Shown piece after piece: positions 24,821 to 50,903 of a stretch of 51,099 nt of DNA. Within the stretch, counting starts at the first letter, position 1; each line of letters opens with the position of its first letter. The notes beneath the pieces are model-generated. The model made no database searches, was not told the origin of the DNA, and was given only the letters and a program-made list of their open reading frames with translations. The translations under genes were made by a program, and so were the position numbers. Origin of the DNA: Arthrobacter sp. SDTb3-6 (GTDB lineage: Bacteria; Actinomycetota; Actinomycetes; Actinomycetales; Micrococcaceae); assembly GCF_013376095.1 (NCBI RefSeq), contig NZ_JAAMFN010000032.1:1-51099 (forward strand), in the 5' to 3' direction.

Positions 24821-24894
24821 ACCCCCGCCCAGCCAGCACCAGCTGCAGCGGCGCGCACGCCAGTACTTGGGCCGGTTTTAGAGTAGCCAGCCGG

Positions 24895-24946
24895 AAAAAA
24901 CGAGTGGAAACCACCCTATCGGCCACGCATCCCCGCATCATACGCT
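24895..24946 (+). promoter_or_regulatory. Regulon promoter element, copy A
   Basis: A-tract (24895-24900), CGAGTGG (24901), CCAC half, CTATCGG block starting 24916, CATCC near 24929 and TACGCT -10 box at 24941-24946. CRAGTRG-to-CTAT spacing is 15 nt, as in all five copies. No gene follows closely; the LASTG gene is 720 nt downstream behind copy B. Confidence 0.7.
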
Positions 24947-25371
24947 TTTCATAGTCAGAAGATTGTGGAAAGGATGGGCTGGCAACGGTACGGCAATCAT
25001 GCGTGGTCTCAATTCAATTTCATGGACGCAATTCGAAAGGCATTTCCTTGCCTGCGGACCCTGCCACCAAGAGATCCTCGTTGCGCGCATAAAACGCACC
25101 CTGTGAAATAAATTTTTCCGCAACCACAAAATGGGCTGAAATTCAATTCCAGCCCGAATTTGCCATGCCCAAAAATCGCCCGCCGGCTCGCGGCACCAGC
25201 AGCCCCCCCACGCGTGAACCCAGCATGAACCCTGCGTGAACCCAGCACTGTGGCGCCAAAACGGGCCAACACCAAGCCTGAACCGCCCCACACCAGGCCC
25301 AACCGACCGAAAAATACCGGCAGAAAATAAGAAATTCCAAGTAGTAAATCGCATCACCCAAGTGGTGCTCC

Positions 25372-25426
25372 ATAAAAATACGAGTGGCCATCACGCTATT
25401 GATTGCCCATCAGGCAAATCTAGTCT
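25372..25426 (+). promoter_or_regulatory. Regulon promoter element, copy B
   Basis: A-rich stretch, CGAGTGG at 25381, TCAC half, CTATTG block starting 25396, CCATC near 25408 and TAGTCT -10 box at 25421-25426. It would drive the LASTG surface-protein gene with a ~240-nt leader. Confidence 0.72.
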
Positions 25427-25630
25427 TGCGGTATTGGTCCGACGCTGGGGCGGAGAAGCAAGTGTTACTTATTCATGGAGTATGGAAAGGACCGGCTGGA
25501 GCATGGCTCGCCGGCCCTCAGCCATGCGTTTCCTTCACCCCCACCGCCGGATCGGATGCCCGCGACCAGGCATCCCACACCGCCGAAAAAAATCCTGGAA
25601 AGCTGCACAATTTCGGCGGATTCCGTTGGC

Positions 25631-25644
25631 GCAGTTACTACTGC
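25631..25644 (+). promoter_or_regulatory. Dyad just before the LASTG gene ribosome site
   Basis: GCAGT-TACT-ACTGC is a perfect 5-bp dyad ending 5 nt before the AGGAG ribosome site of the 25665 gene. It could be an operator or a leader hairpin affecting translation. Confidence 0.4.
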
Positions 25645-25664
25645 ATTTTAGGAGTTGGGGAATC

Positions 25665-27467
25665 ATGTTAGGAAAAACCAGCAAGTCATTGCATGCGGCC
25701 CGGGGCGCGCGGGGGCGGCGGTTGCTGTCCGGCCTGACCGCATCGACCGCAGTACTCGCCCTGGCGTTTGCCGGCCTCGCCGCGCTGGCCGCCGGCCCCG
25801 CCACAGCGGCCACCGCCACAGCGGCCACCGCCACAGCGGCCACCACCTCAGCGGCGCCCACCGATGAAATGGTCAGCCTGTGCCATGCCACAGGCAACCC
25901 CGTGGACCAGTACCTATTAGTCACCGTCAGCCTTGATGCCTTCAAGACGGGCCATGGCACCCACGTCGATGACATTTACCCGCCCAACAGCCTCCGGCCG
26001 AACGGCCAGAACTGGGACGCCGCGGGCCAGGCCATCTTCAACAATGGTTGTGCAACGGCGCCGCCCGCCACAGCGGTTACGCCCCAGGCCCCCACCGTCA
26101 GCCAGGCCACCTGCACGGACCAGGGCGCGGCCACTGTCCCCGTAGTAGAGGTGGCGTCCACCCAGGGGATTTTCTACACGGTGGTTGGCAGCGTCGCTGC
26201 CGGCAGCACCGTCACTGTGGTCGCAACGCCCGCGCCGCAGGGCACGTACACGCTGGCAGCCGCCAATGGGTGGATGCCCAATGCGGACGGCACGGCGAGC
26301 TACACCGTTGTCCTTGACGCGGCCCCCAGCTGCGTCACGGAAGCGGTCCCGGCCGCGCCAGCCGCCGTCCAGGCAGTCTGCAACGGACCCGGGACATCCA
26401 CGGCACCCATGCTGACCCTCGCCAGCACACCCGGCATCGGCTACACCGTGGCCGGAACGGCAGCCCCGGGCAGCACCGTCACCGTCACGGCCACCCCGGC
26501 GGCCGGCTACACGTTGGCCGCCGCAGCAGGCTGGACGGCCAACAATGACGGCACGGCCAGCTACACGGTCACCTTCGACCCTGCACCCGACTGCGCCGTG
26601 GTGGTCCCTCTTGTTTCGGCAAGCCCGACGGCGCCCACCGCCACCCAGGCTGTTTGCACACCTTCCGGAACGGCCACCACACCCGCCTTGGCCCCCGCCA
26701 CGACAACCGGAATCGGCTACACCGTGAACGGAACCGCAGCCGCCGGCCACACTGTCACCGTCACTGCCACGCCGGCCGACGGCTACACGCTGGCCGCGGC
26801 AGCAGGCTGGACGGCCAACAACGACGGCACAGCCAGCTACACGGTCACCTTCGACGCAGCACCGGAATGCGCCGCGGCGACACCGATTGTTGCGGCCACC
26901 CCGACGGCGCCCACCGCCACCCAGGCTGTCTGCACACCATCCGGAACCGCCACCGCACCCACACTGACGCTCGCCACCACACCCGGAATCGACTACACCG
27001 TAACCGGACCGGCAGCGGCCGGCAGCACCGTCACCGTCACCGCAACACCCCAGGCCAGCCACAAGCTGGCCGCCGCGGCAGGCTGGACGGCCAACAACGA
27101 CGGCACGGCCAGCTACACGGTCACCTTTGGGACAGTGGACTGCTCGGCCGTCACCACACCCGTTGACCCGCCGTCGACCCCGGTAGTCACAGACCCTCCG
27201 GCAACCCCGGTCGTGACAGACCCGCCAGCCAAGCCCGTATCGGACCCGGCCCCGCCCGTGCTTCCAAAGGCAGCGACACCAGTGCTCCCGAAAGCCGCAG
27301 CCGTAGTGGTTCCGCAGGCCGTTTCCGTACTGCCGCAATCGGCAGCCCAGCCCACCGCGCTGGCCTCAACCGGCTATGACCCGGCCTGGAGTGTCTCGCT
27401 GGCAATCATGTTCCTGGTGGTCGGCGCGGGCGCCGTGTGGCGCAGCCGCCGGCCCGCAGGGCAGTAA
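25665..27467 (+). CDS. Sortase-anchored (LASTG) surface protein with four ~85-residue repeats
   Basis: 600 residues; AGGAG stands 10 nt before the ATG. A signal peptide (basic start, then VLALAFAGLAALAAGPATAA) is followed by a short alanine/threonine repeat. Residues ~72-125 are an unassigned N-terminal domain with MVSLCHATGN. Four tandem beta-rich repeats of ~85 residues follow (nt ~26090-27150), each with YTVxGxAAxGSTVTVTATP, AAAAGWTANNDGTASYTVTFD and two cysteines. A proline/valine-rich wall-spanning stretch (PVVTDPP) ends in LASTG, a hydrophobic helix and RSRRP, the layout of a class E sortase substrate. No sortase gene is in the window. Role in a cell-surface matrix is inferred from its neighbours. 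Confidence 0.82.
   Translation: MLGKTSKSLHAARGARGRRLLSGLTASTAVLALAFAGLAALAAGPATAATATAATATAATTSAAPTDEMVSLCHATGNPVDQYLLVTVSLDAFKTGHGTHVDDIYPPNSLRPNGQNWDAAGQAIFNNGCATAPPATAVTPQAPTVSQATCTDQGAATVPVVEVASTQGIFYTVVGSVAAGSTVTVVATPAPQGTYTLAAANGWMPNADGTASYTVVLDAAPSCVTEAVPAAPAAVQAVCNGPGTSTAPMLTLASTPGIGYTVAGTAAPGSTVTVTATPAAGYTLAAAAGWTANNDGTASYTVTFDPAPDCAVVVPLVSASPTAPTATQAVCTPSGTATTPALAPATTTGIGYTVNGTAAAGHTVTVTATPADGYTLAAAAGWTANNDGTASYTVTFDAAPECAAATPIVAATPTAPTATQAVCTPSGTATAPTLTLATTPGIDYTVTGPAAAGSTVTVTATPQASHKLAAAAGWTANNDGTASYTVTFGTVDCSAVTTPVDPPSTPVVTDPPATPVVTDPPAKPVSDPAPPVLPKAATPVLPKAAAVVVPQAVSVLPQSAAQPTALASTGYDPAWSVSLAIMFLVVGAGAVWRSRRPAGQ
25801..25845 (+). repeat. 15-bp in-frame tandem repeat after the signal peptide
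   Basis: Three units of CCACAGCGGCCACCG (the last with one change) encode TATAA repeats at the mature N-terminus of the LASTG protein. Confidence 0.9.
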
Positions 27468-27793
27468 GCCGGGCAGTAACCCGGTCAGCACCCGGCCGGC
27501 AGCCCCCTGAAGTAAGCCGGCAGCCCGCGGCCCCCGCGCCCCCGTCAACCGGACGGCGCCGGGGCCATCGGGCTGCCCGGCGACACGCCGGCGTCGTTAC
27601 CGTTTTGTTATCTGAGCGCCATTTCGGTAATGTGGTGCCCGGTCTCCTAAAGGTTCCGGTCCCATGGCCGGATGCCTTTCCATGCATTTTCCGACGGCGG
27701 CCGCGTCCGCCAAGGGCCTGGGGGTTCTCCCGGCGGTGTGTCGCCGTCACCTTACATGAACGTCCCACAGGGGCGTCCCTACCCGGGAGATAT
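27468..27793 (+). promoter_or_regulatory. Promoter and ~155-nt leader of the GH16 gene
   Basis: TTGTTA (27605-27610), a 17-nt spacer and TAATGT (27628-27633) form a good promoter, enclosed by the inverted repeat TTACCG (27597) / CGGTAA (27625). The leader from ~27640 to 27793 contains several GC-rich stems but matches no riboswitch I can name. The five-copy regulon element is absent here. GGGAGA precedes the ATG. Confidence 0.5.
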
Positions 27794-28948
27794 ATGCCTT
27801 TTAAGCACAACCATGCCCAAAACGCGCAGCACCTGGCAGCAAAAACAGCCCCCACGGCCGGAGCAGCGGCCAGGCCGCGCACCGCCGCCGCACACAAGGC
27901 CGCCCCCCGCAAGGCAGCCGCCCACAAGGCCGTGCTGCTCATGGCCATCGGAGTCATGTCCCTGACGGGCTGCGGCTTGGCCGCGCCGGGCGGCCACGGC
28001 AATGCAGCCGCCGGCTCCAGCGCAGAATTGGCCGCCGCCAGCAAGCCGTTGGCCTCGCATTCCCTGACGCAGAGGAGCACCCAAACGACCAAGGCAACGA
28101 ACTCCCACAAGCCCAAGCCGACGGCGTCGCCCTCCCCCAGCCCCACGGCGTCGCCCTCGCCGACCACAACGTCCGCCCCGAGCCCGGCCCCTGTCACCAG
28201 CCCCAGCCCCGTGACCAGCCCCAGCCCCACCTCCAGCACGACTGCCACGTCCACGCCGACCGCCACCAGCGCCCCTTTGGCAGCAGCTCCGACCGGCGAC
28301 GGCACCCAGGCCGCGGTCAAGTACGGCTGGGGGTCCGTGGTTGCCGGTGACGAGTTCAACTACACCGGAGCCCCGGATTCAACCAAGTGGAGCGTCTACG
28401 ACAGTGCCGGCCACGCGGGCAACGGCACCCGCACCCCGGCGGCCTGGAACGTTGCCAACGGCATGGCCACCGTCAGCGGCGACTCCTCGGGCAACACCGG
28501 CGGGATGTCTGCCAAGTTCGCCCAGCAGGAGTATGGCCGGTGGGAAGCCCGCATGCGCACCAACGACCGGGACCCGCAGTACCACCCGGTGCTGATCCTG
28601 TGGCCCAACAACAACGCCTCCTCCACGTGCGCGGAAATCGACTACGCCGAAAGCACGGAGTTGACCACGCAGATGAAGTTCTTCCTCCACTACGCCTGCA
28701 GCGGCTCCGACTTCCAGACCACCAGTTCGACGCCGATCGACACCACCCAATGGCACAACTACGCCGTGGAGTGGACACCGGCCGGCATCACCGGCTACAT
28801 CGACGGCGTAAAGACGTTCACCGACACCAACCCCGCCCACCAGCCGGGCGTCGGCATGCACCAGACGATCCAGCTGGACTGGTTCCCGAGCGGAGCGGCC
28901 ACCAAGCCCTCGCAAATGCAGATCGACTGGGTGCGCGTCTACAAGTAG
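27794..28948 (+). CDS. Family 16 glycoside hydrolase, secreted lipoprotein
   Basis: 384 residues. After an unusually long basic, alanine-rich N-terminus comes VLLMAIGVMSLTGC, a lipobox that would anchor the protein to the outer face of the membrane. A serine/proline/threonine linker leads to the GH16 domain (~residue 178 to end): GDEFNYTGAPDSTKWSVYD, GRWEARMRT, the catalytic EIDYAE (E281, D283, E286), WHNYAVEWTP and MQIDWVRVYK. GH16 enzymes cut beta-1,3/1,4-glucans or galactans; beside polysaccharide genes such enzymes often trim or release the product. The exact substrate is unknown. A strong terminator follows. Confidence 0.88.
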   Translation: MPFKHNHAQNAQHLAAKTAPTAGAAARPRTAAAHKAAPRKAAAHKAVLLMAIGVMSLTGCGLAAPGGHGNAAAGSSAELAAASKPLASHSLTQRSTQTTKATNSHKPKPTASPSPSPTASPSPTTTSAPSPAPVTSPSPVTSPSPTSSTTATSTPTATSAPLAAAPTGDGTQAAVKYGWGSVVAGDEFNYTGAPDSTKWSVYDSAGHAGNGTRTPAAWNVANGMATVSGDSSGNTGGMSAKFAQQEYGRWEARMRTNDRDPQYHPVLILWPNNNASSTCAEIDYAESTELTTQMKFFLHYACSGSDFQTTSSTPIDTTQWHNYAVEWTPAGITGYIDGVKTFTDTNPAHQPGVGMHQTIQLDWFPSGAATKPSQMQIDWVRVYK

Positions 28949-28976
28949 CCCACCACCCCTTCATACCGCGGCATCA

Positions 28977-29015
28977 GGGCCGCCGGACGTCACACCGACG
29001 TCCGGCGGCCCTTTT
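28977..29015 (+). terminator. Rho-independent terminator after the GH16 gene
   Basis: A perfect 15-bp stem (GGGCCGCCGGACGTC, loop ACACC) is followed by TTTT. It separates the GH16 unit from the glycosyltransferase operon. Confidence 0.9.
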
Positions 29016-29040
29016 CGTGCGCAAGTAGCGGCCCCCAAAA

Positions 29041-29107
29041 ACGAGTACAGGCCCTTTCAATTCAAGTAGTTCCTACGCTATCGGCGGCCATCCCCCGGAC
29101 GTAGTGT
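29041..29107 (+). promoter_or_regulatory. Regulon promoter element, copy C
   Basis: CAAGTAG at 29063, CTAC half, CTATCGG block starting 29078, CCATCC near 29089 and TAGTGT -10 box at 29102-29107. A further CGAGT with an A-tract before it starts at 29042. A GCCGCC/GGCGGC hairpin (29115-29143) lies in the ~165-nt leader of the GT2 gene; the rest of 29108-29273 shows nothing else I recognise. Confidence 0.72.
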
Positions 29108-29273
29108 TTTTTTAGCCGCCAGGGAAAAAACCACATGGGCGGCCGGTCTAGGTCTCATTTGTGGGATTGAAATAAATAGTTTTGCTGGGGACGTCCTTGA
29201 GGGAGGCAGCCGCGGCAAGGGCACGGGGGCCTAAATAGGTTTCACCGTGTCTTCCGCAAATCTGGAGGAAGCA

Positions 29274-30155
29274 ATGACCTATTCGGGCCCGGCAGAAGCA
29301 GGAGGCGCCACTACGGCGCATCTGCCCCAGAGAACTCCCCACCCTCCAGTCGTACACCGGAATCCAACGGTGAGCCTGGTGATTCCCACACTCAATGAGG
29401 CACGGAACCTGCCGTGGGTGCTGCGGCGCATCCCCCCGTTCGTGGACCAGGTGGTCATCGTGGACGGCCGCTCCGTGGATGACACCGTCAAGGTGGCCAA
29501 GGCGGTCCGCCCCGACGTCGACATCGTCCTGGAAAGCGAAAAGGGCAAGGGCGCGGCCATCCGGGCCGGGTTCTCCGCCAGCACCGGCGACCTGATCGTC
29601 ATGATCGATGCCGACGGCAGCATGGACCCGGCCGAGATTGGCTGGTACACCGAGCTCCTGAGCAGCGGCTTCGACTTCGTCAAGGGCTCGCGCTACCTCA
29701 CCGGGGGCGCCTCCGACGACCTCACCTGGCTCCGGGGGCAGGGCAACCGGGCCCTGACCGGCCTGGCCAACGTCGCATGCCACCGCCATTTTTCCGACCT
29801 TTGCTACGGGTACGTGGGCCTGCGGCGGCAGTGCCTGCCCCTCCTGGAGCTCGCCTCCAACGGCTTTGAAATTGAAACCGAACTGGCCATCCGGGCCGCC
29901 TTGGCCGGACTGCGCATCGCCGAAGTGCCCACGCACGAGCTGAACCGGCTTTCCGGCACGTCCAACCTGCGCACCTTCAAGGACGGCTGGCGGGTGCTGC
30001 ACACGCTGGTGAAGGAATGGTCCCTGTGGGATTCCCCCACCGCCGGCGCCATGGCCGAGTCGATGCAACGGGTCCACTACCACGAGCCGCCGGTCGAGGT
30101 CTCCCGTGCCCCGGAGGACCTGGCAGCCCTGCTCACCCCGCCGATGGGGGTGTGA
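29274..30155 (+). CDS. GT2-family glycosyltransferase (dolichol-phosphate-mannose-synthase-like)
   Basis: 293 residues; GGAGGAA lies just before the ATG at 29274, which I prefer to an in-frame GTG 27 nt earlier. GT-A fold: SLVIPTLNEARNLPWVL, VVIVDGRSVDDT, ESEKGKGAAIRAGF, LIVMIDADGSMDP (metal-binding DxD) and FVKGSRYL. It probably transfers a sugar from a nucleotide donor to a lipid carrier or glycan at the cytoplasmic face. No membrane helices. First gene of the long polysaccharide operon; the next gene begins 1 nt after its stop. Confidence 0.88.
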   Translation: MTYSGPAEAGGATTAHLPQRTPHPPVVHRNPTVSLVIPTLNEARNLPWVLRRIPPFVDQVVIVDGRSVDDTVKVAKAVRPDVDIVLESEKGKGAAIRAGFSASTGDLIVMIDADGSMDPAEIGWYTELLSSGFDFVKGSRYLTGGASDDLTWLRGQGNRALTGLANVACHRHFSDLCYGYVGLRRQCLPLLELASNGFEIETELAIRAALAGLRIAEVPTHELNRLSGTSNLRTFKDGWRVLHTLVKEWSLWDSPTAGAMAESMQRVHYHEPPVEVSRAPEDLAALLTPPMGV

Positions 30156-30156
30156 G

Positions 30157-31131
30157 ATGCCGGCCAACCAGCTCCCCACCGCCAGCGTCGTGATCTGTGC
30201 GTACACCGAAGACCGTTGGGCGTGGCTGCAGCAGGCCATTGAATCGGTCCAGGCGCAGACCGCCGCCGCCCACGAACTCATCATCGTCGTGGACCACAAC
30301 CAGCCGCTGCAAAAGCGGCTCCTGCACCACCTCACCGGCGCCTATGTGCTTGAAAACAATGGCGCCAAGGGGCTGTCCGGGGCCAGGAACACCGGCGTCC
30401 TGGCCGCCACCGGGGAGATCATCGCCTTCCTGGACGACGACGCCGTCGCCGGTCCGGAATGGCTGGAACGCCAGCTGGAACTCTACGACGACCCGGCGGT
30501 CTACGCAGTCGGCGGCCGGATCGAACCGCTGTGGGAAACCGGCCGCCCGGCCCACTTCCCGCAGGAGCTGGACTGGATTGTGGGCTGTTCCTACCGCGGC
30601 CTGCCGCGGGTCGCCGCCCAGGTCCGCAACGTGATCGGGGCCAGCATGTCCTTCCGCCGCTCCGTCTTCGAGGACGCCGGCCTCTTCGATGAACGCATGG
30701 GCCGGACGACGGCGTTGCACGGGTGTGAGGAAACCGAGCTGTGCATGCGGGCGGCCGCCCTGCGCCCCGGCGGGCGCGTGGTGTACGAGCCGGCGTCGCT
30801 GGCCTCACACCATGTCCCCCAATCCCGGGGCACCTTGGGCTACATGCTGGCCCGGTCGTGGGGCGAGGGGATCTCGAAGGCCCAAATCTCCGCCCTGCCT
30901 GGCGCACGACGGCGGCTGGGCCCGGAGCGCCGCTACGTCGCCGAGGTGCTCCCCCGCGCGATCGTCCGCAACCTGGTTTCCGGCCAGTTCGACGGGCTGG
31001 TCAGCAGCGGGGCAATTTTTTCCGTGCTGGCGGCAACCGCCGCCGGCTATGTTGTGGGGCGCGCAAGGCACCCCCTGTCCGCCGCGCACGCCGCGAGGGG
31101 CAATTCCGGCGATATGGAGGTGGCGCTATGA
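30157..31131 (+). CDS. GT2-family glycosyltransferase
   Basis: 324 residues. ASVVICAYTEDRWAWLQQAI, LIIVVDHNQ, KGLSGARNTGV, IIAFLDDDAVAGPEWL (DxD) and EETELCMRAA (the ED acceptor-site motif) define a GT-A glycosyltransferase. A C-terminal hydrophobic segment (FSVLAATAAGYVVG) could attach it to the membrane. The stop overlaps the next start (ATGA). Donor and acceptor sugars are unknown. Confidence 0.88.
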   Translation: MPANQLPTASVVICAYTEDRWAWLQQAIESVQAQTAAAHELIIVVDHNQPLQKRLLHHLTGAYVLENNGAKGLSGARNTGVLAATGEIIAFLDDDAVAGPEWLERQLELYDDPAVYAVGGRIEPLWETGRPAHFPQELDWIVGCSYRGLPRVAAQVRNVIGASMSFRRSVFEDAGLFDERMGRTTALHGCEETELCMRAAALRPGGRVVYEPASLASHHVPQSRGTLGYMLARSWGEGISKAQISALPGARRRLGPERRYVAEVLPRAIVRNLVSGQFDGLVSSGAIFSVLAATAAGYVVGRARHPLSAAHAARGNSGDMEVAL

Positions 31132-33649: not shown

Positions 33650-33773
33650 CCTCGCCGCCGGCATGGCGCGCCGGACGTCCCCCTCGGGAGACGTCCGGGT
33701 CCGCGCCACCGCGCACCTGCTGGCCTGCGACGGCGTCCCCGCCGCAGCGCCCAGCGCAACAATTCTTTACGCC

Positions 33774-33793
33774 CCGGCGGCAAACGCCGCCGG
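33774..33793 (+). promoter_or_regulatory. Hairpin in the gap before the protein B gene
   Basis: CCGGCGGC-AAAC-GCCGCCGG, extended by TTTAC before and TAAA after. It is the main structure in the 225-nt gap, the largest interruption of the operon, along with a CCGGACGTC/GACGTCCGG dyad near 33672. It may attenuate or process the transcript. Confidence 0.45.
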
Positions 33794-33874
33794 TAAATCG
33801 GTGGAGCGGGCAAGGTGCCCGCTGGCCACGGTGGACGCCCCCTAGGGCGGGACCGGCAATCTGGAGGTGCCATT

Positions 33875-41936: not shown

Positions 41937-42195
41937 GCTCGCCACCGGGGCTGCGTTCTACCTTGCCCTGGCCATCGCCCTGAGCCTGGGTTCCTCGCTG
42001 CTGGTGGCCACGGGCATGGTCTACTTCCGCCTCTGGAACCCTGCCGCCGGCATGTGGGTGGTGGCAGGGCTCACGCTCGCCCTGCTGGGCGCACAGCGGC
42101 TGCCCAGGATAACCATGGCACAATTCCTGTACGGCCAGGACGGCCTCAAGCACGGCCCGGACCCATCGAAGGCGGTCTCCCATGCAGGCAGCTAA
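41755..42195 (+). CDS. Small polytopic membrane protein of the polysaccharide operon
   Basis: 146 residues. Four hydrophobic segments: YLPDLALALLATATFPLALA, LGTLVLIGPGGAAALWFW, AAFYLALAIALSLGSSLLVA and AGMWVVAGLTLALLGA. No family recognised. It overlaps the 3' end of the fusion gene by 182 nt in another frame and the next gene by 14 nt. Its membrane-like composition argues that this frame, not the upstream one, is the true coding frame in the overlap. Confidence 0.7.
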   Translation: MRKLRYLPDLALALLATATFPLALAGSVPLRASVLGTLVLIGPGGAAALWFWRTAPGHRSRLATGAAFYLALAIALSLGSSLLVATGMVYFRLWNPAAGMWVVAGLTLALLGAQRLPRITMAQFLYGQDGLKHGPDPSKAVSHAGS

Positions 42196-43447: not shown

Positions 43448-43449
43448 CC

Positions 43450-43485
43450 GGGTCTGGCCGGCCCTGGAGCCCACCGGCCAGACCC
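43450..43485. terminator. Hairpin between convergent phosphoesterase and response-regulator genes
   Basis: A perfect 12-bp stem (GGGTCTGGCCGG, 43450-43461, with 43474-43485) fills the 39-nt gap between the two stop codons. Probably terminates both transcripts; no T-tract. Confidence 0.8.
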
Positions 43486-43486
43486 G

Positions 43487-44365
43487 CTACACGGCCAGCC
43501 GGTACCCGATGCCGCGGACCGTCTTGATCCAGCGCGGCGAGCGCGGGTCGTCGCCCAGCTTCCGGCGCAGGTTGGCCATGTGCACCTCGATGGTGCGTTC
43601 GTCCGAGTCGCTGATGTAGCTGCCCACGTCGTACCCCTCCCCGCGCAGCCGGCGCACCAGCTCGGCCTTGGAGAGCACCCGCTTCCCGCCTTCCATGACG
43701 GCCAGCAGCAGGTCGAACTCGGTGCGGGTCAATTCCAGTTCCGTCCCGTCCACCTCGGCCGTGCGCATGGCCCCGTTGAGGCACAGCCCGCTGTGCACCA
43801 GCAGGCCCACCTGCGCCGGGGGATGTTCGACGGCGGCCGACGGCGCCGGGGTGCCGGCCCCCAGCCCGGCCGGGGCTCCCGACGGCGCCGAAGCTCCCGA
43901 TGGCGCCGGTGTGCCCGACGGCGCCGGGCCGGCCCCCACTGCGGCCCCGACACCGGCCACCGGTGCAGCAGTCCCCTGCCCGGCAACAGCCCCCTGGCGC
44001 GGGCGGCGCAGCAGGGCGCCCACGCGTGCCCGCAGTTCGCGGGGGCGGAAGGGCTTGGTCAGGTAGTCGTCGGCGCCGGTTTCCAGTCCCAGCAGCGTGT
44101 CCAGTTCATCGCCGCGGGCGGTAAGCATGATGATGTAGCAATCGCTGAAGAGCCTGATGCGCCGGGCCGCTTCAAAGCCGTCAATGTCCGGCAGGCCCAA
44201 GTCCAGCGTGACCACGGCCGGGCGGTAGCTGCGCACGGCCTCCACCCCGGCCGCGCCGGTGCCTGCGGTGTGCACCTCAAAGCCCGATTGGGCGAGGACC
44301 ACCTTGATCAGTTCACGAATGTCCTGGTCGTCCTCAATGATGACAGCAACCCGCGACCCATCCAC
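43487..44365 (-). CDS. OmpR/PhoB-family response regulator
   Basis: 292 residues from a GTG behind a GGGGG site. The receiver (residues ~6-120) has acidic residues E11-D13, phospho-acceptor D55 in VVTLDLGLPDIDGF and LTKPFRP. A winged helix (~200-292) has LELTRTEFDLLLAVMEGG, ERTIEVHMANLRRKLGDD and IKTVRGIGYRLAV. The linker is swollen to ~60 residues by proline/serine/glycine repeats (APSGAP type), much longer than usual. Divergent from the histidine kinase gene and flanked by the two matrix loci, which makes it a candidate regulator of one or both. Confidence 0.92.
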   Translation of the reverse strand: MDGSRVAVIIEDDQDIRELIKVVLAQSGFEVHTAGTGAAGVEAVRSYRPAVVTLDLGLPDIDGFEAARRIRLFSDCYIIMLTARGDELDTLLGLETGADDYLTKPFRPRELRARVGALLRRPRQGAVAGQGTAAPVAGVGAAVGAGPAPSGTPAPSGASAPSGAPAGLGAGTPAPSAAVEHPPAQVGLLVHSGLCLNGAMRTAEVDGTELELTRTEFDLLLAVMEGGKRVLSKAELVRRLRGEGYDVGSYISDSDERTIEVHMANLRRKLGDDPRSPRWIKTVRGIGYRLAV

Positions 44366-44560
44366 AACTACCCCCGAAGGTACATAAGAGACCTGCTGCC
44401 CCAAACAGCAGCAATGGGCGTCCACCAATGCACGCCTCTGAACAGTATGACATCATCATTGTCGGGGCGCAGGAGGGTTGTCCGCAAAACCATCCGGCGC
44501 CAATGACACGCCGCGTGACTTCCAGCTGCTGGGGGCAACGCTTTCGCAGAGGGACGTCCC

Positions 44561-46228
44561 TTGACAGAATCCAGAACCACCAGGCTGATCCGCCGTTATT
44601 TCCACGAGCGCTCCCTGCGCGTCAAGGTGCTCCTCACGCAGGCACCCCTGAGCCTGACGGTGATGTTGCTGGTAATCCACGCCGTGCTCATCTACCCGGA
44701 GGTCTTTGGGAAGCCCATCTTCACCGCCGGCCTGTGGATGCACGCCGCCATTCTTGCCCTGTGTCTCCTGGTTCCCTGGGACCGGCTCCCCCACCCCAGC
44801 TTCCTGGCCATTCCCTACCTGGATTTTGTGGCCATCGGATTCACCCGCCAGGGCAGCCTGGAATATGCCACCTCGGCCGGACTGCTGATCCTCTTCCCCG
44901 TGTTTTGGCTCGCGGCGTCCGGCCTGGCGCGCAAGACGGCCGTGGTCAGCAGTGCGGTGGCCACCCTTTTGCTGGTCTGGACCCCGGTGTTTCTGGCCAC
45001 CACCCCGGTGGCGGCGCGGGATCTGGGCAAGCCGCTGCTCTTCCCGTTCATGATGGCCGGCTTCGCCGTGGCCGTCGTGACCATGACCAGCAGCATGGAC
45101 AGCCAGCGCCTGCAGGTGGTGGCCAAGGACGCCCAGCTGCGTGCCTCCCTGAAGGCCAGCCGCCAGCGCGAACAGCTCCTCTCCACCGTCCTGGACACGG
45201 TGGCCGTGGGCCTGGTGGTGGTGGACGGCGGGGGCCATGACCAGCTGATGAATTCCATGCAGCGGGCCAACCACGCCTTGGCCGTGCCGGAGGGCGTCGT
45301 GAACCCTGCCGAGAAGGACCTGCTGGTCTTTGCCGGGGACAAGACCACCCCGCTGGAGGCCGAGGCCCGCCCCGTCCGCCGCGCCGTCAAGGGCGAGTCC
45401 TTCACCAACTACCCCATCTGGATCGGCTCCGGGGACCGGGCCCGGGCCTTTTCCACCACCGCCCGGACCATCCGCAATGAGGACGGCGATTACGACGGCG
45501 CCGTCATCGCCTTCCAGGACATCACCGACATGACGGCCGCCATGGCCGCGAAGGACGACTTCGTTGCGAACGTCTCCCACGAATTCCGCACCCCGCTGAC
45601 CTCGATCCAGGGATACCTGGCCCTTGCCCTTGATGAACCGGAGCTGTTGCCCGGCGACGTGGCGAAGTACCTGACGGTGGCCGAACGCAACGCCGACCGG
45701 CTCAGCGGGCTGGTCGCGGACCTGCTCACCACCGACGCGATGGAGGTGGAGAAGTCCCTGGCCGACGTCGCCGGCCTGGTTGCGGACAGCCTGGCCTCGG
45801 CGCGCCCGGCCGCGGCCATCAACGGCGTGGAGCTCACGGCCCAGGCACCGGCCAGCCTGGCCGCCTGGGTTGACCCCGTCCGGATCGGCCAGGTGCTGGA
45901 CAACCTGGTCTCCAACGCCGTGAAGTACTCGCCCGACGGCGGGACGGTCACCGTGCGCCTGTGGGCCAGCGGCCGTGACCTGCTGTGCGAGGTCCAGGAC
46001 ACCGGGCTGGGCATGAGCAGCGCCGAGCAGGCGGAGGCCTTCACCAAGTTCTTCCGGGCCGATTCCGCCCTGCAGCGCTCCATCCCCGGGCTGGGCCTGG
46101 GGCTGATGATCACCAGGTCAATCGTCACCCGGCACGGCGGCACCATTTCGGTGTGCAGCGAACGCAACGTGGGCACCACCATGCGCCTGGTCCTGCCGGA
46201 CTGTGTGGAGGCGCCGGGCGCGTCCTAG
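44561..46228 (+). CDS. Sensor histidine kinase, membrane bound
   Basis: 555 residues, TTG start (TTGACAGAATCC), the least certain part of the call. Five to six helices in residues ~20-190 (LTVMLLVIHAVLIYPEVF, AAILALCLLVPW, AGLLILFPVFWLAAS, FPFMMAGFAVAVVTM) precede a coiled stretch and a PAS-like module (~200-325). H340 in FVANVSHEFRTPLTSIQGY is the phospho-acceptor; ATPase boxes are VLDNLVSNAVKYSPDGG, VQDTGLGMS and GLGLGLMITRSIV. No large extracellular sensor domain, so it probably senses within or close to the membrane. Partner of the divergent regulator at 43487. The 3' end overlaps the converging gene by 4 nt. Confidence 0.9.
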   Translation: MTESRTTRLIRRYFHERSLRVKVLLTQAPLSLTVMLLVIHAVLIYPEVFGKPIFTAGLWMHAAILALCLLVPWDRLPHPSFLAIPYLDFVAIGFTRQGSLEYATSAGLLILFPVFWLAASGLARKTAVVSSAVATLLLVWTPVFLATTPVAARDLGKPLLFPFMMAGFAVAVVTMTSSMDSQRLQVVAKDAQLRASLKASRQREQLLSTVLDTVAVGLVVVDGGGHDQLMNSMQRANHALAVPEGVVNPAEKDLLVFAGDKTTPLEAEARPVRRAVKGESFTNYPIWIGSGDRARAFSTTARTIRNEDGDYDGAVIAFQDITDMTAAMAAKDDFVANVSHEFRTPLTSIQGYLALALDEPELLPGDVAKYLTVAERNADRLSGLVADLLTTDAMEVEKSLADVAGLVADSLASARPAAAINGVELTAQAPASLAAWVDPVRIGQVLDNLVSNAVKYSPDGGTVTVRLWASGRDLLCEVQDTGLGMSSAEQAEAFTKFFRADSALQRSIPGLGLGLMITRSIVTRHGGTISVCSERNVGTTMRLVLPDCVEAPGAS

Positions 46229-47163
46229 CCCATGGACGCGCTGCCGGAGTAGTACTTGATGGTCCTGTATACGGGGTCGCCGGCGGTGGTCCCGTTCATC
46301 GGCTGGATCCGGAAGCTGTAGTCGCAGTAATACGGCGCGGTTGCGTCCGCCGGGTTGACCAGGTTTCCGGAGGCATCCGTGGCGGCCTGCGGGAACGTCA
46401 GCGTGGCGGAGAGGTTGCCGGTGGTGAACTCGGTGCCGTAGCCGGAGGTCGTGGACTTCACGGTAACCACATAGCTGGTGGCCCCCGTTGAGGCAGTCCA
46501 GTTGATGGCCATGGTGGACGTCGTGGCGCCGCGCACCACGGGCTGCGCCGTCGGGCTGACGGTCCCCAGCGGCGGTGCCGCGGCGGGTGTGACCTGGTCG
46601 CACTGGCCGGACGTGTTCGAGGAAAACGTGAACGACTTGTAGACGGGGTCACCGGCCGTGGCGCCGTCGAAGGGCTCAATCCGCAGCAGGTAGGACGTGC
46701 CGTTGGAGACCGCGGCTTCGCGGAAGGTAAACACCGCGGTGGTGCCGGTGACGGATTCGGTGGCAACCGGCGTCGCAGGCGGCCCGGTCAGGGACAGGGT
46801 GGTCGCGTAGGACGTTGCATTCGTCACGGCCGGCCACGTGAAGGTGAAGGCCACACTCCCCTGTTGCTTGGCGGACGTACAGCTGAAACCGCCCACAAAG
46901 GCCCCCGGCCGCACGGCGAGCGTCGGGGAGGCCACCACCCCGCCCACGGGCGGCGGCGCGGTGATGGCGGGCGCGCCGGCCGTGATGGCGATGGTTGCCG
47001 TGCTGCTTTGCTGCCAGTTGGCCACGGCGGCAAAGGTCCCGCCGCCAATGAAGACCGTCACGAGGAACGCCACCACGGAGGCCTTGAAGCCCGGCAGCGC
47101 GCGGAGCCGCGACCATGCACCTGCGGCATGGCCCGCCTCCGGCCGGGGCTGGCGGCTTCTCAT
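46225..47163 (-). CDS. Secreted protein with alternate-type (SipW-like) signal peptide and two beta-sandwich domains
   Basis: 312 residues. ASVVAFLVTVFIGGGTFAAVANWQQSSTATIAI matches the alternate signal peptides cleaved by SipW-type peptidases (glycine-rich end of the helix, then a tryptophan; quoted here in parts: FIGGGTFAAVANWQ). Two fibronectin-III-like repeats follow, each ending AGDPVYKSFTF or AGDPVYRTIKYY after a RIxPxxGxTAGDP pattern. Last gene of the SipW operon; its start overlaps the preceding stop by 4 nt. It may be a structural component of an extracellular fibre, inferred from context. Confidence 0.75.
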   Translation of the reverse strand: MRSRQPRPEAGHAAGAWSRLRALPGFKASVVAFLVTVFIGGGTFAAVANWQQSSTATIAITAGAPAITAPPPVGGVVASPTLAVRPGAFVGGFSCTSAKQQGSVAFTFTWPAVTNATSYATTLSLTGPPATPVATESVTGTTAVFTFREAAVSNGTSYLLRIEPFDGATAGDPVYKSFTFSSNTSGQCDQVTPAAAPPLGTVSPTAQPVVRGATTSTMAINWTASTGATSYVVTVKSTTSGYGTEFTTGNLSATLTFPQAATDASGNLVNPADATAPYYCDYSFRIQPMNGTTAGDPVYRTIKYYSGSASMG

Positions 47164-47996
47164 GGATTCCTCCGCCTTCTTTTGGCCAGGGCAGCGGCAC
47201 AGAACAGGCCGCCGGCAAGCAGCAGCAGCTGCCCGGGGCGCTGGTCGTTGCCCACCACATTACTGTGCGGCGCCGGGTCCGGTGCGGGATCCTCCTGATG
47301 CCCGACGCCGGACGGCGCACCGGCCGCTTCGGGCGCGGCCGGTGCGGTGCCCGCCTCCACGGCAGTGCCGCTGGTGCCGGCCAGCTGGGGCAGGGTGGTC
47401 CGGGCGGCCGGGGCGGCCGTCCCGTCCGGCGCGTGGCACGCCTGGATGGTGGCGCCGGCACCGGCTTCCTGCATGAGGAAGAGCAGCCCAAACGCGGCGT
47501 TTTCGCGGCGGGTGGCGTTGGTGGCGGAGGCGTCCAGGCCAAGGGCCAGTTCCAGGCGCGCGGTCTGGCCGGGGGCCAGCGCCAGGCCGTGGAATACGCT
47601 GCGGCAGCCTCCGGGGGCGGCCAGGGGCACGGTGGCCGCGGGCCCGCCGTGCGATCCGGCGGCGAGTTCAAGGGATTGCGTCAGGACGGCATTTCCCCGG
47701 GCCGAGGTCACGGCCAGGGAGATCTCCGCCGGTGCGGTACCTGAGTTGCGTACCCAGACGGTGCCGCGGCGGAAATCGCCGGGCACCATGCCGGAGAGAT
47801 TGGGGAAGACCACAGGCTCCCGGTTGCTGCTGAAGTGGGTGCCATCGCTGCTCAGTTCCATGGCCGGGCCGCCGTCGGCGCTGGCGGGACCTGCCGCCAG
47901 GCCGGATGCGGCGGCTGCCAGGAGGCCGCCGGCCACCACGGCCGCTGCGCGGACCCGGCGGGGCCTCCGGCGGGCTGCGGACCGGGCGGGGTTCAT
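47160..47996 (-). CDS. Secreted membrane-anchored protein of the SipW-like operon
   Basis: 278 residues. Signal peptide ending AAGPASADG, a beta-rich ectodomain (VFPNLSGMVPGDFRRGTVWVRNSG, AEISLAVTSARGNAV) with two cysteines, an alanine/proline linker and a C-terminal helix with basic tail (LLLLAGGLFCAAALAKRRRRNP). The ectodomain looks like the domain found beside actinobacterial TasA-type proteins, but I cannot name it. It could act as membrane anchor or minor subunit. Overlaps the peptidase gene and the next gene by 4 nt each. Confidence 0.7.
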   Translation of the reverse strand: MNPARSAARRRPRRVRAAAVVAGGLLAAAASGLAAGPASADGGPAMELSSDGTHFSSNREPVVFPNLSGMVPGDFRRGTVWVRNSGTAPAEISLAVTSARGNAVLTQSLELAAGSHGGPAATVPLAAPGGCRSVFHGLALAPGQTARLELALGLDASATNATRRENAAFGLLFLMQEAGAGATIQACHAPDGTAAPAARTTLPQLAGTSGTAVEAGTAPAAPEAAGAPSGVGHQEDPAPDPAPHSNVVGNDQRPGQLLLLAGGLFCAAALAKRRRRNP

Positions 47997-48604
47997 GCGC
48001 CCTGTCCGGATTCCTTCTTGGTGCGTTTCTTCCCCCAGGCGCCCTGGACCATGCTGAAGGCGCCGAAGCCGATGAGCCCCACGGCTGCAATGGGCAGGAT
48101 GGCCCCGCGGTTGGTCTGGCCCAGCGAGTTGGCCACAAAGCCCACGTAGGGCACGGCGTACAGCAGCTTGCCGCGGACCTGCTGGGCGTGGACGGGGCCG
48201 GCGTCGGCCAGGGAGTTGTTGTCCCCCTTGGTGGTGAACACGCGTTCGCCGGACTGGGTGGTGCCCACGGAAATGATCCGGTGGCTGATCACGGCCGGCT
48301 TTCCGGAGGCGATCTGGTAGGTGATGATGTCGCCCACGCGGAGGTCGGCGAACGGCGTGGGCTTGACCACCATGAACGTGCCCGGCGCGTATTTCGGTGC
48401 CATCGAGTTGGTCAGGACCGTGTACGTCTGGGAGCCGGTGGCCAGCGGTGCCACCACCAGGACCAGGGCCGCCAGCGCGGCCACCAGGAACAGCAGGTAC
48501 GCCACGGCGCGCCCGGCCAGGCGCAGCCAGCGCCGTGCGGGCGTGCCCGTGCTTGCCGGCGTTGCGGGCTGGGCCACCGGAGTGGCTGTGTGGGTGGCGG
48601 TCAT
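47993..48604 (-). CDS. SipW-like (ER-type) signal peptidase I
   Basis: 203 residues; GAAGGA stands 6 nt before the ATG. An N-terminal helix (~33-52) leads to the catalytic domain: S67 in LTNSMAPKYAPGTFMVV, H108 in VISHRI, where bacterial-type peptidases have a lysine, and TKGDNN. The Ser-His pair is the signature of archaeal/ER-type enzymes such as B. subtilis SipW. A C-terminal helix (ILPIAAVGLIGFGAFSM) follows. SipW processes TasA and TapA; here the three co-encoded proteins with alternate signal peptides are the obvious substrates. Confidence 0.92.
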   Translation of the reverse strand: MTATHTATPVAQPATPASTGTPARRWLRLAGRAVAYLLFLVAALAALVLVVAPLATGSQTYTVLTNSMAPKYAPGTFMVVKPTPFADLRVGDIITYQIASGKPAVISHRIISVGTTQSGERVFTTKGDNNSLADAGPVHAQQVRGKLLYAVPYVGFVANSLGQTNRGAILPIAAVGLIGFGAFSMVQGAWGKKRTKKESGQGA

Positions 48605-48627
48605 GGCGATCCTTCTCTGGTGTTGGT

Positions 48628-49221
48628 CTATTGCTGGGCGACGGTGAGGGGAATGGAGATCCCGGCGGTGCTTCCAGCCAGGTTGGCGGGCATGGCCGCG
48701 TTGAGGCTGACCTGGAAGCAGAACACCCCGGTGCTCCCCTTGGCGATGGCCATGGAGGGCAGGTCGGTGGGCAGTGCCAAGGTGTACAGGGAGGCGCTGG
48801 CGCATTGGGCCAGGGACCCTGCAGCCACGGCCTTGACGGTCAGGTAGCCTGCCAGGCCGCTGCCGGTGTCCGTCTTGACGGGCGTGGAGCCAACGGCGGC
48901 GCGGATGGTGAAGGCTCCGCCGGCGTTCGTGACGTTTCCCACCTGGACGCCGGCGTAGGTGGCCTGTCCGGGAACCAGGGCTCCGGCCGGCGTGGTGGTG
49001 AGTGCAATGGCGGCGGCGGTGCCGTTGGGAAGTGTCATGTCCGTGGTGTTGCTGGTCTGCGTGTCAGTCAATGTGACCCTGAAGTCCGCTGCCTGGATGG
49101 TGCCGGCGCTGGCGCTGGCGGCCGAGTTCCAGAGTGCGTAGCTGCCCGGGACGGCCATGAGTCCCAGGAGGACTGCGGCCAGGACCAGGCCGGCCGCCTT
49201 CAGCATGGGCGTACTTCGCAT
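48628..49221 (-). CDS. SipW-dependent-type secreted protein (candidate fibre subunit)
   Basis: 197 residues; GGAGAAGCC precedes the ATG. The start MLKAAGLVLAAVLLGLMAVPGSYALWN carries the SipW-dependent signal pattern (helix, then SYALW; quoted across the cleavage region), followed by SASASAGTIQAADFRVTLTD, as in TasA/camelysin-type proteins. The mature part is an all-beta domain with two cysteines. Lies 23 nt upstream of the peptidase gene. Assembly into fibres is inferred from the Bacillus parallel. Confidence 0.82.
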   Translation of the reverse strand: MRSTPMLKAAGLVLAAVLLGLMAVPGSYALWNSAASASAGTIQAADFRVTLTDTQTSNTTDMTLPNGTAAAIALTTTPAGALVPGQATYAGVQVGNVTNAGGAFTIRAAVGSTPVKTDTGSGLAGYLTVKAVAAGSLAQCASASLYTLALPTDLPSMAIAKGSTGVFCFQVSLNAAMPANLAGSTAGISIPLTVAQQ

Positions 49222-49293
49222 GGCTTCTCCGAACAGGGTGGTGGTGTACCGGCAGTCCGCCGGCACACCACCGGGGTCATCAACGGATGGGTT

Positions 49294-49320
49294 GGCCGCA
49301 GCCCCTTCAGGGGAACGGCC
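49294..49320 (-). terminator. Intra-operon hairpin, possible attenuator
   Basis: GGCCG...CCCC-TTCA-GGGG...CGGCC sits just after the stop of the first gene of the SipW operon and before the second gene. Lacking a T-tract, it may give partial termination or protect the 3' end so that the first gene is expressed most. Confidence 0.5.
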
Positions 49321-49327
49321 GCCCCGG

Positions 49328-49876
49328 CTACGAGTTGTTCGCGGAGGCGGGCGCCTGCTGGACCAGCGCGTAACCGATGCCGCCCAGGTTGTACGTGGCG
49401 TTGGTGGCGGTGCGCCCCGTGGTGGAGGTGTTGAAGGTGAAGGTGGTGGACGCCTTGACCACTCCGGAATCGGCCGGGGTGAGGATGGTATCCGGAAGAA
49501 TCTGGGTGCCCTTGGTCAGCGTGGTGGGGCTGAGGGTTGCGGCGCCGCCGAAGGCAGTGGCGCCGGTGCCGTCCTGGCCGGCACCGGTGACCGCCAGCTT
49601 GGCCTGCATGAGGTCGCCGGTGAGCGTGACGGTGACGTCCTGCGTGTACGTCAGTACATCGCCCGGAACCACGTGGTAGGCGGTGATGTCCGGGATGACG
49701 GTGCCGGCGGCGTTGGTCCACTTGCCGTTGGTGGCCGCCAGGTTCAGGTCACCGGAAACCACGGAGCCCATGTTGGCCTGCTGTGCCTGGTTCCATGTGG
49801 CCAGCGTGCCGCCGCCGCCTACCAAAAGGATGACGCCTACGCCGGTTGCGATTGCGCCTTTGACCATCTTGTTCAT
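49328..49876 (-). CDS. Alternate-type signal-peptide exported protein (candidate major fibre subunit)
   Basis: 182 residues. MVKGAIATGVGVILLVGGGG then TLATWNQAQQA is the alternate-type signal peptide described for the RER_14450 family. The mature part is beta-rich (SGDLNLAATNGKW, YHVVPGDVLTYTQDVTVTLTGDLMQAKLAV cut by a turn), lacks cysteine and resembles TasA-type folds in length. First gene of the operon, separated from the rest by 106 nt with a hairpin, which suits a high-abundance subunit. The leader contains another strong hairpin (49914-49942). Confidence 0.83.
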   Translation of the reverse strand: MNKMVKGAIATGVGVILLVGGGGTLATWNQAQQANMGSVVSGDLNLAATNGKWTNAAGTVIPDITAYHVVPGDVLTYTQDVTVTLTGDLMQAKLAVTGAGQDGTGATAFGGAATLSPTTLTKGTQILPDTILTPADSGVVKASTTFTFNTSTTGRTATNATYNLGGIGYALVQQAPASANNS

Positions 49877-49913
49877 TGTGAGACCCCTTGTTCAAGTGTT
49901 CCCGGCGGGTTTT

Positions 49914-49942
49914 CCTGCCGATGGGTACAACCATCCGGCAGG
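49914..49942 (-). promoter_or_regulatory. Leader hairpin of the SipW-like operon
   Basis: CCTGCCGATGG pairs with CCATCCGGCAGG (one bulged base) around a GTACAA loop, ~38-66 nt before the start codon on the minus strand. It may stabilise the message. Confidence 0.5.
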
Positions 49943-50141
49943 CACCTCAAGAAAATGCCGCCAATTTAGGGAAGATCAGCGGAAGGTCCGCCAAAGGTTT
50001 ACCCAAGCTCCCAAGACCTCCAGGCAAGCTCAATATTTGGGCAGGATCTGCTCAATTCGCCGAAAATACATGGGTTTGGCGGGCCCGGGAACTAGGCTGG
50101 AAACACTGAAAGTTGGCACCAAAGGGAAGGGAAGGCACGCA

Positions 50142-50510
50142 ATGTCACGTCCATGTCCACCCTTGGTGAGCCTGGCCCAGTTGCACGAGCTGGAGGATTC
50201 CCTGGGCGGGGAAACCGCCTTGTGCAAGGGATTCGTCAACAACTATGTGGCCATGTGGTCCGGGCGGTTCCAGCGGCTGGCCTCCGCCGTGACGGCAGAA
50301 GACCTGGAAGACGCCATGGATGCGGCACTGAGCCTTTGCACCTCCAGCCACATGGTGGGCGCCCAGCGCTTGGAACAGTGCACCCAGGACTTGATCAAGA
50401 ACCTGCGCAGCGGCTGCCTGGGCGGCGCCACGGCCGCCCTGCCCTCCTTGGGGCGGTGCGGGCAGCGAACGGTGGATGCACTGCTGGAACGGTATGTCCG
50501 GCGCGCCTAG
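50142..50510 (+). CDS. Hpt-domain-like protein lacking the phospho-histidine
   Basis: 122 residues; AAGGGAAGG precedes the ATG and a TAGGCT -10 box lies 49 nt before it. The helical pattern FVNNYVAMWSGRFQRLASAV, AMDAALSLCTSSHMVGAQRL and CTQDLIKNL matches the Hpt four-helix bundle. In the usual A-H-x-L-K-G-S-S motif the histidine aligns with leucine and the lysine with cysteine (ALSLCTSS), so phosphotransfer is unlikely. It may have become a binding or regulatory protein. It is divergent from the SipW-like operon. Confidence 0.68.
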   Translation: MSRPCPPLVSLAQLHELEDSLGGETALCKGFVNNYVAMWSGRFQRLASAVTAEDLEDAMDAALSLCTSSHMVGAQRLEQCTQDLIKNLRSGCLGGATAALPSLGRCGQRTVDALLERYVRRA

Positions 50511-50590
50511 GGCACCCGTCAATCGGTCCGCAAAGACCAAGGAAACATGGACCAAGTAACGGCGGCGGAGAAGCAAGTGCCGGCCCGCAA

Positions 50591-50640
50591 AAAAGCCAGT
50601 GGTCACCACTCTGTCCGCCCCGGTCGCGCCAGCCTACCGT
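50591..50640 (+). promoter_or_regulatory. Regulon promoter element, copy E
   Basis: A-tract, CCAGTGG at 50596 (part of the dyad AGTGGTCACCACT), CTGTCCG block starting 50611 and TACCGT -10 box at 50635-50640. The 41-residue membrane-protein gene starts 50 nt after the start of the -10 box. Confidence 0.62.
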
Positions 50641-50684
50641 GGAAGGTAGGGCAAATTCGCCAAACGCAGAGGGAAGGCATCCAC

Positions 50685-50810
50685 ATGAGCGGCAGACACA
50701 AGGGCATCGCCGTCGGCGCCCGCCCGGCGTCCCGGAAGTACCTGATGACGGGCCTCGTGGCCGCTGTTGCCGTTGCCGTCGCCTGGACACTCCTGGCGGT
50801 GCTTCACTAA
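50685..50810 (+). CDS. 41-residue single-helix membrane protein
   Basis: GGGAAGG lies 6 nt before the ATG. A basic N-terminus (MSGRHKGIAVGARPASRKY) precedes one helix (LMTGLVAAVAVAVAWTLLAVL). No homologue known to me. A copy of the shared promoter element ends 45 nt upstream, which argues that the gene is real and belongs to the same regulon. An in-frame ATG at 50547 would place the promoter inside the gene, so I reject it. Confidence 0.6.
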   Translation: MSGRHKGIAVGARPASRKYLMTGLVAAVAVAVAWTLLAVLH

Positions 50811-50857
50811 TGCACCTCCGCGGGGCTGCGGCGGGGACGCCGGCGCCTGGATCCGTG

Positions 50858-50903
50858 CGAATGGACATGCCGCTATCGCGGGAATCACATCCAGGTGTAG
50901 GTA
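50858..50903 (+). promoter_or_regulatory. Regulon promoter element, copy D
   Basis: CGAATGG at 50858, CTATCGC block starting 50873, CATCC near 50888 and TAGGTA -10 box at 50898-50903. The guanylyltransferase gene starts 49 nt after the start of the -10 box, the same distance as for copy E. Confidence 0.68.

Follow-up and report, generated by a model that had tools for sequence, protein, structure and literature searches.

A composite promoter element before surface and polysaccharide genes of Arthrobacter and its probable link to tandem LAL regulators

Which regulator reads the similar promoter-like strings that stand in front of cell-surface and polysaccharide genes of Arthrobacter sp. SDTb3-6, and how many of these strings belong together? 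The stretch that raises this question, referred to here as the window, is an entire contig of 51,099 nucleotides (nt) (C71, NZ_JAAMFN010000032.1) with a G+C content of 69.5%, from a genome of 4,313,954 bases in 144 contigs. An initial annotation had reported five copies of one element, each consisting of a heptamer, a CTAT or CTGT block exactly 15 nt on and a TANNNT hexamer 24-25 nt further, and all five strings are present, at 24901, 25381, 29063, 50596 and 50858. The first four are copies of a composite element with upstream repeats, each matched at E<0.01 by a model built from other genomes; the fifth is judged a non-member. The element is probably the operator and promoter of a surface and matrix regulon under the control of LAL proteins encoded in a tandem cluster.

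Architecture of the promoter element

Direct repeats lie about 21-22 nt, or two DNA turns, apart, and the string CRAGTRG, their promoter-proximal unit, also forms the left arm of a palindrome with the family consensus CGAGTA-N5-TACTCG. In element A (24860..24946, on the plus strand like the others) heptamers start at 24860, 24880 and 24901, the palindrome spans 24901-24917 (CGAGTGG AAA CCACCCT) and the -10 hexamer TACGCT occupies 24941-24946. Element B (25338..25426) has heptamers at 25338, 25359 and 25381, a palindrome at 25381-25397 and the -10 TAGTCT at 25421-25426; A and B are placed as distal and proximal promoter of the gene for a LASTG cell-wall protein. Element C (29022..29107; heptamers at 29022, 29042 and 29063; palindrome 29063-29079; -10 TAGTGT at 29102-29107) lies 5' of a GT2 polysaccharide operon, and element D (50553..50640; heptamers at 50553, 50574 and 50596; palindrome 50596-50612; -10 TACCGT at 50635-50640) between an Hpt-like gene and the genes for a 41-residue protein and ManC. 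The dyad and the -10 spacing of the initial annotation are borne out by this layout. The annotation had missed the upstream heptamers, 21-22 and 41-43 nt 5' of the proximal unit at all four sites, and CTAT is no block of its own, being made up of the end of the inverted arm and the -35 position.

The anatomy was tallied over 53 sites, nine from this genome and 44 from relatives. As the relatives' sites had been picked by scores that reward the heptamers, the -10 and, in some cases, the inverted arm, the frequencies lean towards the model. The GT of the proximal unit C-R-A-G-T-R-G is invariant (53/53) and its third base is A in 37/53. Three free bases follow and then the inverted arm, with its A and C conserved in 9/9 own sites and in 41/44 and 42/44 of the relatives' sites, respectively; the alignment consensus of the latter is CGAGTAG-nnn-CTACTCGTG. 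A TANNNT hexamer starts at +39 or +40 in 9/9 own and 43/44 relatives' sites (52/53 together; the remaining one at +38), the -10 having been among the criteria by which most tallied sites were picked. Half-sites above threshold are found at -20..-22 in 6/9 own and 26/44 relatives' sites, compared to 0.9% of random positions, and at -40..-44 in 7/9 and 22/44, compared to 1.8%, in a sample partly selected for upstream repeats. A-rich spacers of 14-15 nt separate the heptamers, and about 32 nt lie between the proximal heptamer and the -10. The 3' end of the palindrome falls at or within the -35 position, where the -35 consensus is absent. With a transcription start assumed about 7 nt 3' of the -10 hexamer, the palindrome would end about 35 nt upstream of the start and the proximal heptamer would begin near -51.

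The four window elements are more than a chance resemblance. Taken by itself, the pattern CRAGTRGNNNYNMCNCTRT with up to two mismatches gives 6 window matches against 5.0 expected from shuffles. The hexamer C[ACG]AGT[AG] occurs 43 times on the plus strand of the window, and among its pair distances of 8-50 nt only 21, 22, 41 and 43 occur at least twice. A combined score for repeats, inverted arm and -10 reached 36.0-45.8 at the four sites, against 20.3 for the best of 25 dinucleotide shuffles; since the score had been tuned with the help of these sites and related ones, a scan with model R3, built from the 44 sites of other genomes and holding no sequence of the window's genome, is the better test. 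Over that genome, with 150 of 809 first-look candidates scored, R3 returned nine matches with E<0.01, and the next fell to E 0.19. The matches are a site on contig C53, C59:7997, window positions 50551 (element D, E 6.8e-7) and 29021 (C, 8.3e-7), C112:37539, window position 24880 (A, 2.7e-5), C59:2711, C56:73711 and window position 25337 (B, 0.0086), so that 4/9 lie in 1.2% of the genome. The fifth reported site (50858..50903, plus strand) has no upstream heptamer repeats, and it has no R3 match up to E 10 either in the genome scan or in a direct search of the window. A mis-spaced first pattern had been discarded, with five genome matches against 11 control matches.

Association of the element with LAL genes

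LAL proteins are MalT-like STAND ATPases with a C-terminal LuxR helix-turn-helix, encoded here in tandem clusters of about three to five paralogues. This genome has such a cluster on C59 and an orphan gene on C56. The three C59 proteins match AAA_16 and the C56 protein AAA_22 above cut-off, and GerE (PF00196) is matched at residues 851-903, 908-958 and 854-905 of the former and 816-870 of the latter; judged by these domains, an N-terminal ATPase and a C-terminal LuxR-type helix-turn-helix, all are predicted LAL proteins. MalT proper was rejected, the NCBIfam equivalog scoring 21.6 bits, far under its cut-off of 537 and in the helix-turn-helix region only.

The element stands repeatedly at such genes. 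The C59 cluster holds two R3 matches, one of them 95 nt 5' of a LAL start, and in an earlier scan with model R2, trained on sites of this genome (G000), G004, G021 and G151, the own sites ranked sixth and seventh (E 0.039 and 0.11) sit in the same cluster. The R2 family scan also led to a genome with sites among tandem LAL genes (G207), and relatives of the G207 LAL are present in 154/295 family genomes, own C59 included. Relatives found by LAL protein come nearly all from Arthrobacter, Pseudarthrobacter and Paenarthrobacter. Among 20 regions read, own C59 included, most have the element at LAL clusters (L178 has no LAL among the picks). First-pass loci without a well-placed -10 were discarded, for example L023, L024, L048-L050, L060 and L062; L057 has two heptamers and no -10, and the adjoining secreted-protein gene is in opposite orientation. 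Across 78 named loci selected for the similarity of their LAL proteins, R3 gave 105 matches with E<=0.01, spread over 68 loci, and 104/105 are on the LAL strand, a count that is not fully independent because the loci partly overlap the R3 training genomes (for example L194/G008, L195/G007, L209/G127, L261/G162 and L264/G062). An element lies within 450 nt of 45/97 type-3-like, 1/20 type-1-like and 0/77 type-2-like LAL frames, where the types are crude best-BLAST-hit labels and 29 frames too close to a locus end are left out; seven further matches lie 557-686 nt 5' of type-3-like frames. Of the 59 matches other than the 46 within 450 nt of LAL frames, these seven included, about 14 precede glycosylphosphotransferase-like (5) or nucleotide-sugar dehydrogenase-like (9) frames, of which the L196 frame carries CoA_binding_3 and the L207 dehydrogenase was confirmed; the remaining matches precede other frames, or none was picked.

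Co-occurrence points the same way. The R2 scan found sites with E<=0.01 in 42/295 family genomes, the four training genomes being site-positive by construction, and a LAL relative is present in 40/42 of these compared to 114/253 site-free genomes (Fisher 1.2e-10, kinship ignored). Minus the training genomes, the figure is 36/38 (Fisher 1.0e-9), and at E<=0.003 it is 30/30. In G021, an assembly of two contigs, two elements are about 32 and 64 kb away from a LAL gene at 1,556,315. When 85 LALs were placed in a tree and sites were called leniently (score >=17), one group had the element in 17/22 members, against 1/63 LALs outside it, the latter a weak call. Because the element recurs in front of LAL genes, LAL proteins are its likely operators.

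Several results weigh against this assignment. The co-occurrence over 295 genomes is not corrected for kinship, and two genomes with marginal sites (G101, G242) have no LAL at the cut-off used. By the crude best-hit typing, 52/97 type-3-like frames have no match within 450 nt. The element-bearing group of the tree has a low support of 0.27, and the LALs of G207 and G182, with the element 409-410 nt upstream, were excluded from the tree by a motif filter. Among 30 loci fetched by LAL similarity, our own score placed the element 5' of a large frame in eight and R3 found a match in seven; most of the remaining loci encode LALs whose helix-turn-helix differs. G151, which trained R2, has a strong repeat array (score 40.4), but its inverted arm is poor and all its LALs are distant (best E 1.3e-29). 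The two-heptamer pattern alone matches in 79/295 family genomes and is unusable as a definition, since in most listed genomes more hits come from the reversed control. An order-wide R3 control gave 12/198 genomes with E<=0.001, nine of the same family and three outside (G392, G405, G398). The sites of G405 (L291 8585-8664, E 3.7e-6) and G392 (L292 8667-8743, E 7.8e-6), of another family of the order, are mutually orthologous, and no LAL was recognised among the downstream frames listed.

Proposed mechanism and rival explanations

In the proposed mechanism, a pair of LuxR domains would occupy the palindrome CGAGTA-N5-TACTCG at the -35 position, and the heptamers two and four DNA turns further upstream, which lie on the same side of the helix across the A-rich spacers, would be contacted by additional protomers of an ATP-bound LAL oligomer. 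MalT acts as an oligomer. Responding to a presumed signal, the LAL oligomer would recruit housekeeping RNA polymerase to the TANNNT -10 of promoters that have no good -35, and one LAL paralogue, itself behind the element, would be drawn into positive feedback. An ATP-loaded oligomer on the palindrome and phased heptamers is likely, since the geometry resembles that of the Actinoplanes MalT and Rhodococcus TpdR promoters.

Regulators of the LuxR family commonly recognise dyads, and the sites bound by MalT are direct repeats (PMC6099782); MalT itself belongs to the STAND regulators and requires ATP binding (PMC10936776). In Actinoplanes sp. SE50/110, whose regulator is likewise a LAL/MalT-like LuxR protein, the motif TCATCC-5nt-GGATGA overlaps the -35, with its end 34.4+-1.0 nt upstream of the start site (PMC7567727). 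The element shares its 6-nt arms, 5-nt spacer, overlap with the -35, fixed -10 distance and a 3' end some 34-35 nt upstream of the start (here a predicted one), as well as several promoters near the regulator gene. It differs in its arms, which read CGAGTA/TACTCG instead of TCATCC and so lack the MalT sequence GGA(T/G)GA, in its upstream direct repeats, and in its many surface and polysaccharide targets and about three to five LAL paralogues. The promoter PTTMP of Rhodococcus jostii TMP1, controlled by the LAL regulator TpdR, has direct repeats at -79..-65 and -51..-37, the proximal one overlapping the -35, and a short inverted repeat near the -35; unlike the element, its repeats are 15 nt long with 13-nt spacing and another sequence, and it serves a catabolic operon with one regulator described (PMC6099782). 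The MalT boxes of E. coli and Klebsiella are also direct-repeat sites, one box lying in the -35 region, according to citations in PMC6099782 and PMC7567727; they differ in the box sequence, GGGGA(T/G)GAGG, and in serving a maltose regulon. SARP and SARP-LAL operators share heptameric direct repeats, a cooperative activator and, in some, a STAND-like module (PimR, PMC5930380; AfsR, PMC10936776), but PimR spacers measure 4 nt (once 3) instead of 14-15 nt (PMC5930380). The periodicity of about 22 fits a SARP operator, whose period is 11 or 22 bp; this candidate was rejected because the proximal heptamer lies about 32 nt from the -10 and not 8 bp, and no SARP domain was listed in the Pfam search of the own LALs. 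Palindrome and upstream direct repeats together make a composite operator that is unusual for a LAL regulon.

Other proteins could read the element. The initial annotation had pointed to the adjacent OmpR-type response regulator (43487..44428, minus strand), and this protein, or the one encoded divergently from the C53 element, could bind the direct repeats as a winged-helix regulator. Both carry Trans_reg_C, the window protein also a receiver domain, and the C53 element sits between its OmpR-type regulator and the target. Only position favours the window protein, no co-occurrence search having been made for it, whereas the C59 LAL cluster has strong support from both position and co-occurrence. 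OmpR-type proteins bind direct repeats at 10-11 nt, yet no conserved 11-nt half-site is seen by eye between the heptamers. Four genomes of another genus, g10 (G213, G306, G280, G287), keep the element before relatives of the C53 target, and no response regulator was recognised by eye within 7 kb of it among the frames listed, which are partial calls; an OmpR-type binder is therefore improbable. A LytTR-type regulator is more improbable still. The start-to-start spacing of 21-22 nt and the A-rich spacers would suit it, and the genome has one LytTR match, on C79. LytTR operators such as those of ComE and AgrA have 9-bp direct repeats with AT-rich spacers of about 12 nt, no palindrome and a linked LytTR gene; here the proximal unit is palindromic, no paired half-sites occur around the one LytTR gene, and the gene context favours LAL proteins.

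Closer to the proposed mechanism, the LAL genes might be mere targets, with an element-free type 1 or type 2 LAL paralogue or an unseen protein binding the element and controlling both. That the element precedes type 3 and hardly ever types 1 and 2 suits an order in which these stand above type 3, and since LuxR-type geometry fits all LAL types, the two readings differ mainly in the paralogue that binds. Direct autoregulation needs fewer parts, and control by another protein is unlikely. Chance or low-information resemblance, that is, ordinary promoters next to a common heptamer, could appeal to the short mismatched pattern at chance level and to the two-heptamer pattern, which is not enriched family-wide. 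For four sites it is refuted by R3 recovery from other genomes, the shuffle scores, orthologous positions and the strand bias, and as an account of the whole it is hardly credible; for 50858 it stands.

With LAL proteins as the preferred regulators, the several paralogous STAND-LuxR ATPases might even form one mixed oligomeric sensor that assembles on the composite operator and controls the cell surface through one common programme with positive feedback, an idea we hold only tentatively. If true, exopolysaccharide, sortase-anchored and secreted coiled-coil proteins and the sensor's own third subunit would be switched together. LAL proteins have been called a poorly studied family (PMC3282765). 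For Arthrobacter sp. UMCV2, luxR-related genes are described that include larger proteins of 507-916 residues, some with an ATPase domain, and the accessible part of that paper gives no operator or regulon for them (PMC9659744). A search of the open-licence literature found no description of the motif or regulon and no targets for the LAL proteins of these Arthrobacter-type genomes. For an apparently unknown promoter motif, both a regulator family and a function are predicted, in a surface and matrix regulon with sites in many Arthrobacter-type genomes; the motif would offer exact candidate sites for LAL binding and a way to study how these soil bacteria switch on their coats.

Genes behind the element

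The initial annotation had proposed an activator-type matrix and polysaccharide regulon. The R3 scan and the gene context in relatives support it, with matches before surface and polysaccharide genes; the targets are broader: besides exopolysaccharide genes they comprise those of cell-surface and secreted proteins, a LAL gene and, in some cases, genes of other kinds. In the window, all on the plus strand, the tandem elements A and B precede the LASTG protein with InlB B-like repeats (25665..27467), with which a GH16 family gene (27437..28948) is possibly co-transcribed. Element C precedes the first GT2 gene of the polysaccharide operon (29274..30155), and a second GT2 gene follows (30106..31131). 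Element D stands before the frame of a 41-residue membrane protein (50685..50810, a reading frame only) and the start of manC (nucleotidyltransferase, PF00483; 50947..51099), which ends at the contig edge. The Hpt-like gene near element D is below the Pfam cut-off, and its G014 counterpart is above it. On the minus strand, among the proteins at 46225-49876, a frame at 49328-49876 matches TIGR04089/TIGR04088 for a SipW-type signal peptide, which suggests that a TasA-like matrix-protein cluster may lie there; an R3 search of the window gave no match 5' of these genes.

Elsewhere in the genome, the C53 element is 5' of a secreted coiled-coil protein of about 783 residues that is divergent from the response regulator and a kinase-like frame. 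The second C59 match is 5' of an EPS_sugtrans-type gene, which is shortened (residues 47-281 against positions 2-225 of 445 in TIGR03025, below cut-off) and is followed by an inositol-phosphatase-family gene. On C56 (L192 5057-9682) the orphan LAL is followed by the element, after which come a 106-residue gene and one for a class E sortase (NF033747, 245.4 bits). Sortases of this class are mentioned alongside LAXTG signals in one report (PMC5148588), a pairing that would fit the LASTG protein. The C112 element precedes a 112-residue frame without Pfam match. Serine/threonine-kinase-like frames adjoin the orphan-LAL locus.

Several targets recur in relatives. Orthologues of the GT2 gene lie behind the element in the two R2 training genomes G021 (85% identity, triple repeat) and G004 (86%); the layout of element C is kept in the former (L055) and, except for the CTAT block, in the latter (L053). 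G004 also has the element 5' of a LASTG homologue, judged by frame content, and the G007 homologue has clear heptamers upstream and no fitting -10. In G014 (L120) the element is flanked by Hpt and VanZ/nucleotidyltransferase (manC-like) genes. It also precedes relatives of the C53 coiled-coil protein in G213, G306 (55% identical over 777 residues) and G287, and probably in G280, judged by the place of the frame. G151 has it 5' of a cytidylyltransferase/Wzz-like/Alg14-like operon (CTP_transf_like and Alg14 above, Wzz below the Pfam cut-off), and G228 upstream of a DUF3492-GT4 gene that reads as PelF-like. The regulon is not purely polysaccharide, since some sites precede KsgA-like genes (G276, G074) or a SulP-like transporter gene (G162); these names, like CysQ and similar ones below, are readings of translations without family search. 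At one further locus (L056, G003:C1, 5489-10001) heptamers lie 5' of an EPS-type glycosylphosphotransferase-like frame followed by CysQ-, CysD- and CysN-like frames, and a sulfated polysaccharide is possible.

Around the LASTG promoters, similar 17-mers (TGGAAAGGAYSGGCTGG) lie at 24966-24982 and 25483-25499, 3' of each promoter, and a leader of more than 200 nt precedes the gene; leader peptides or RNA control are possible candidates. A scan of the window at Rfam gathering thresholds gave 0 matches. A 16-mer, GGCGGAGAAGCAAGTG, is found at 25449-25464 shortly 3' of element B and again at 50564-50579 inside element D, where the copy ends in the middle heptamer.

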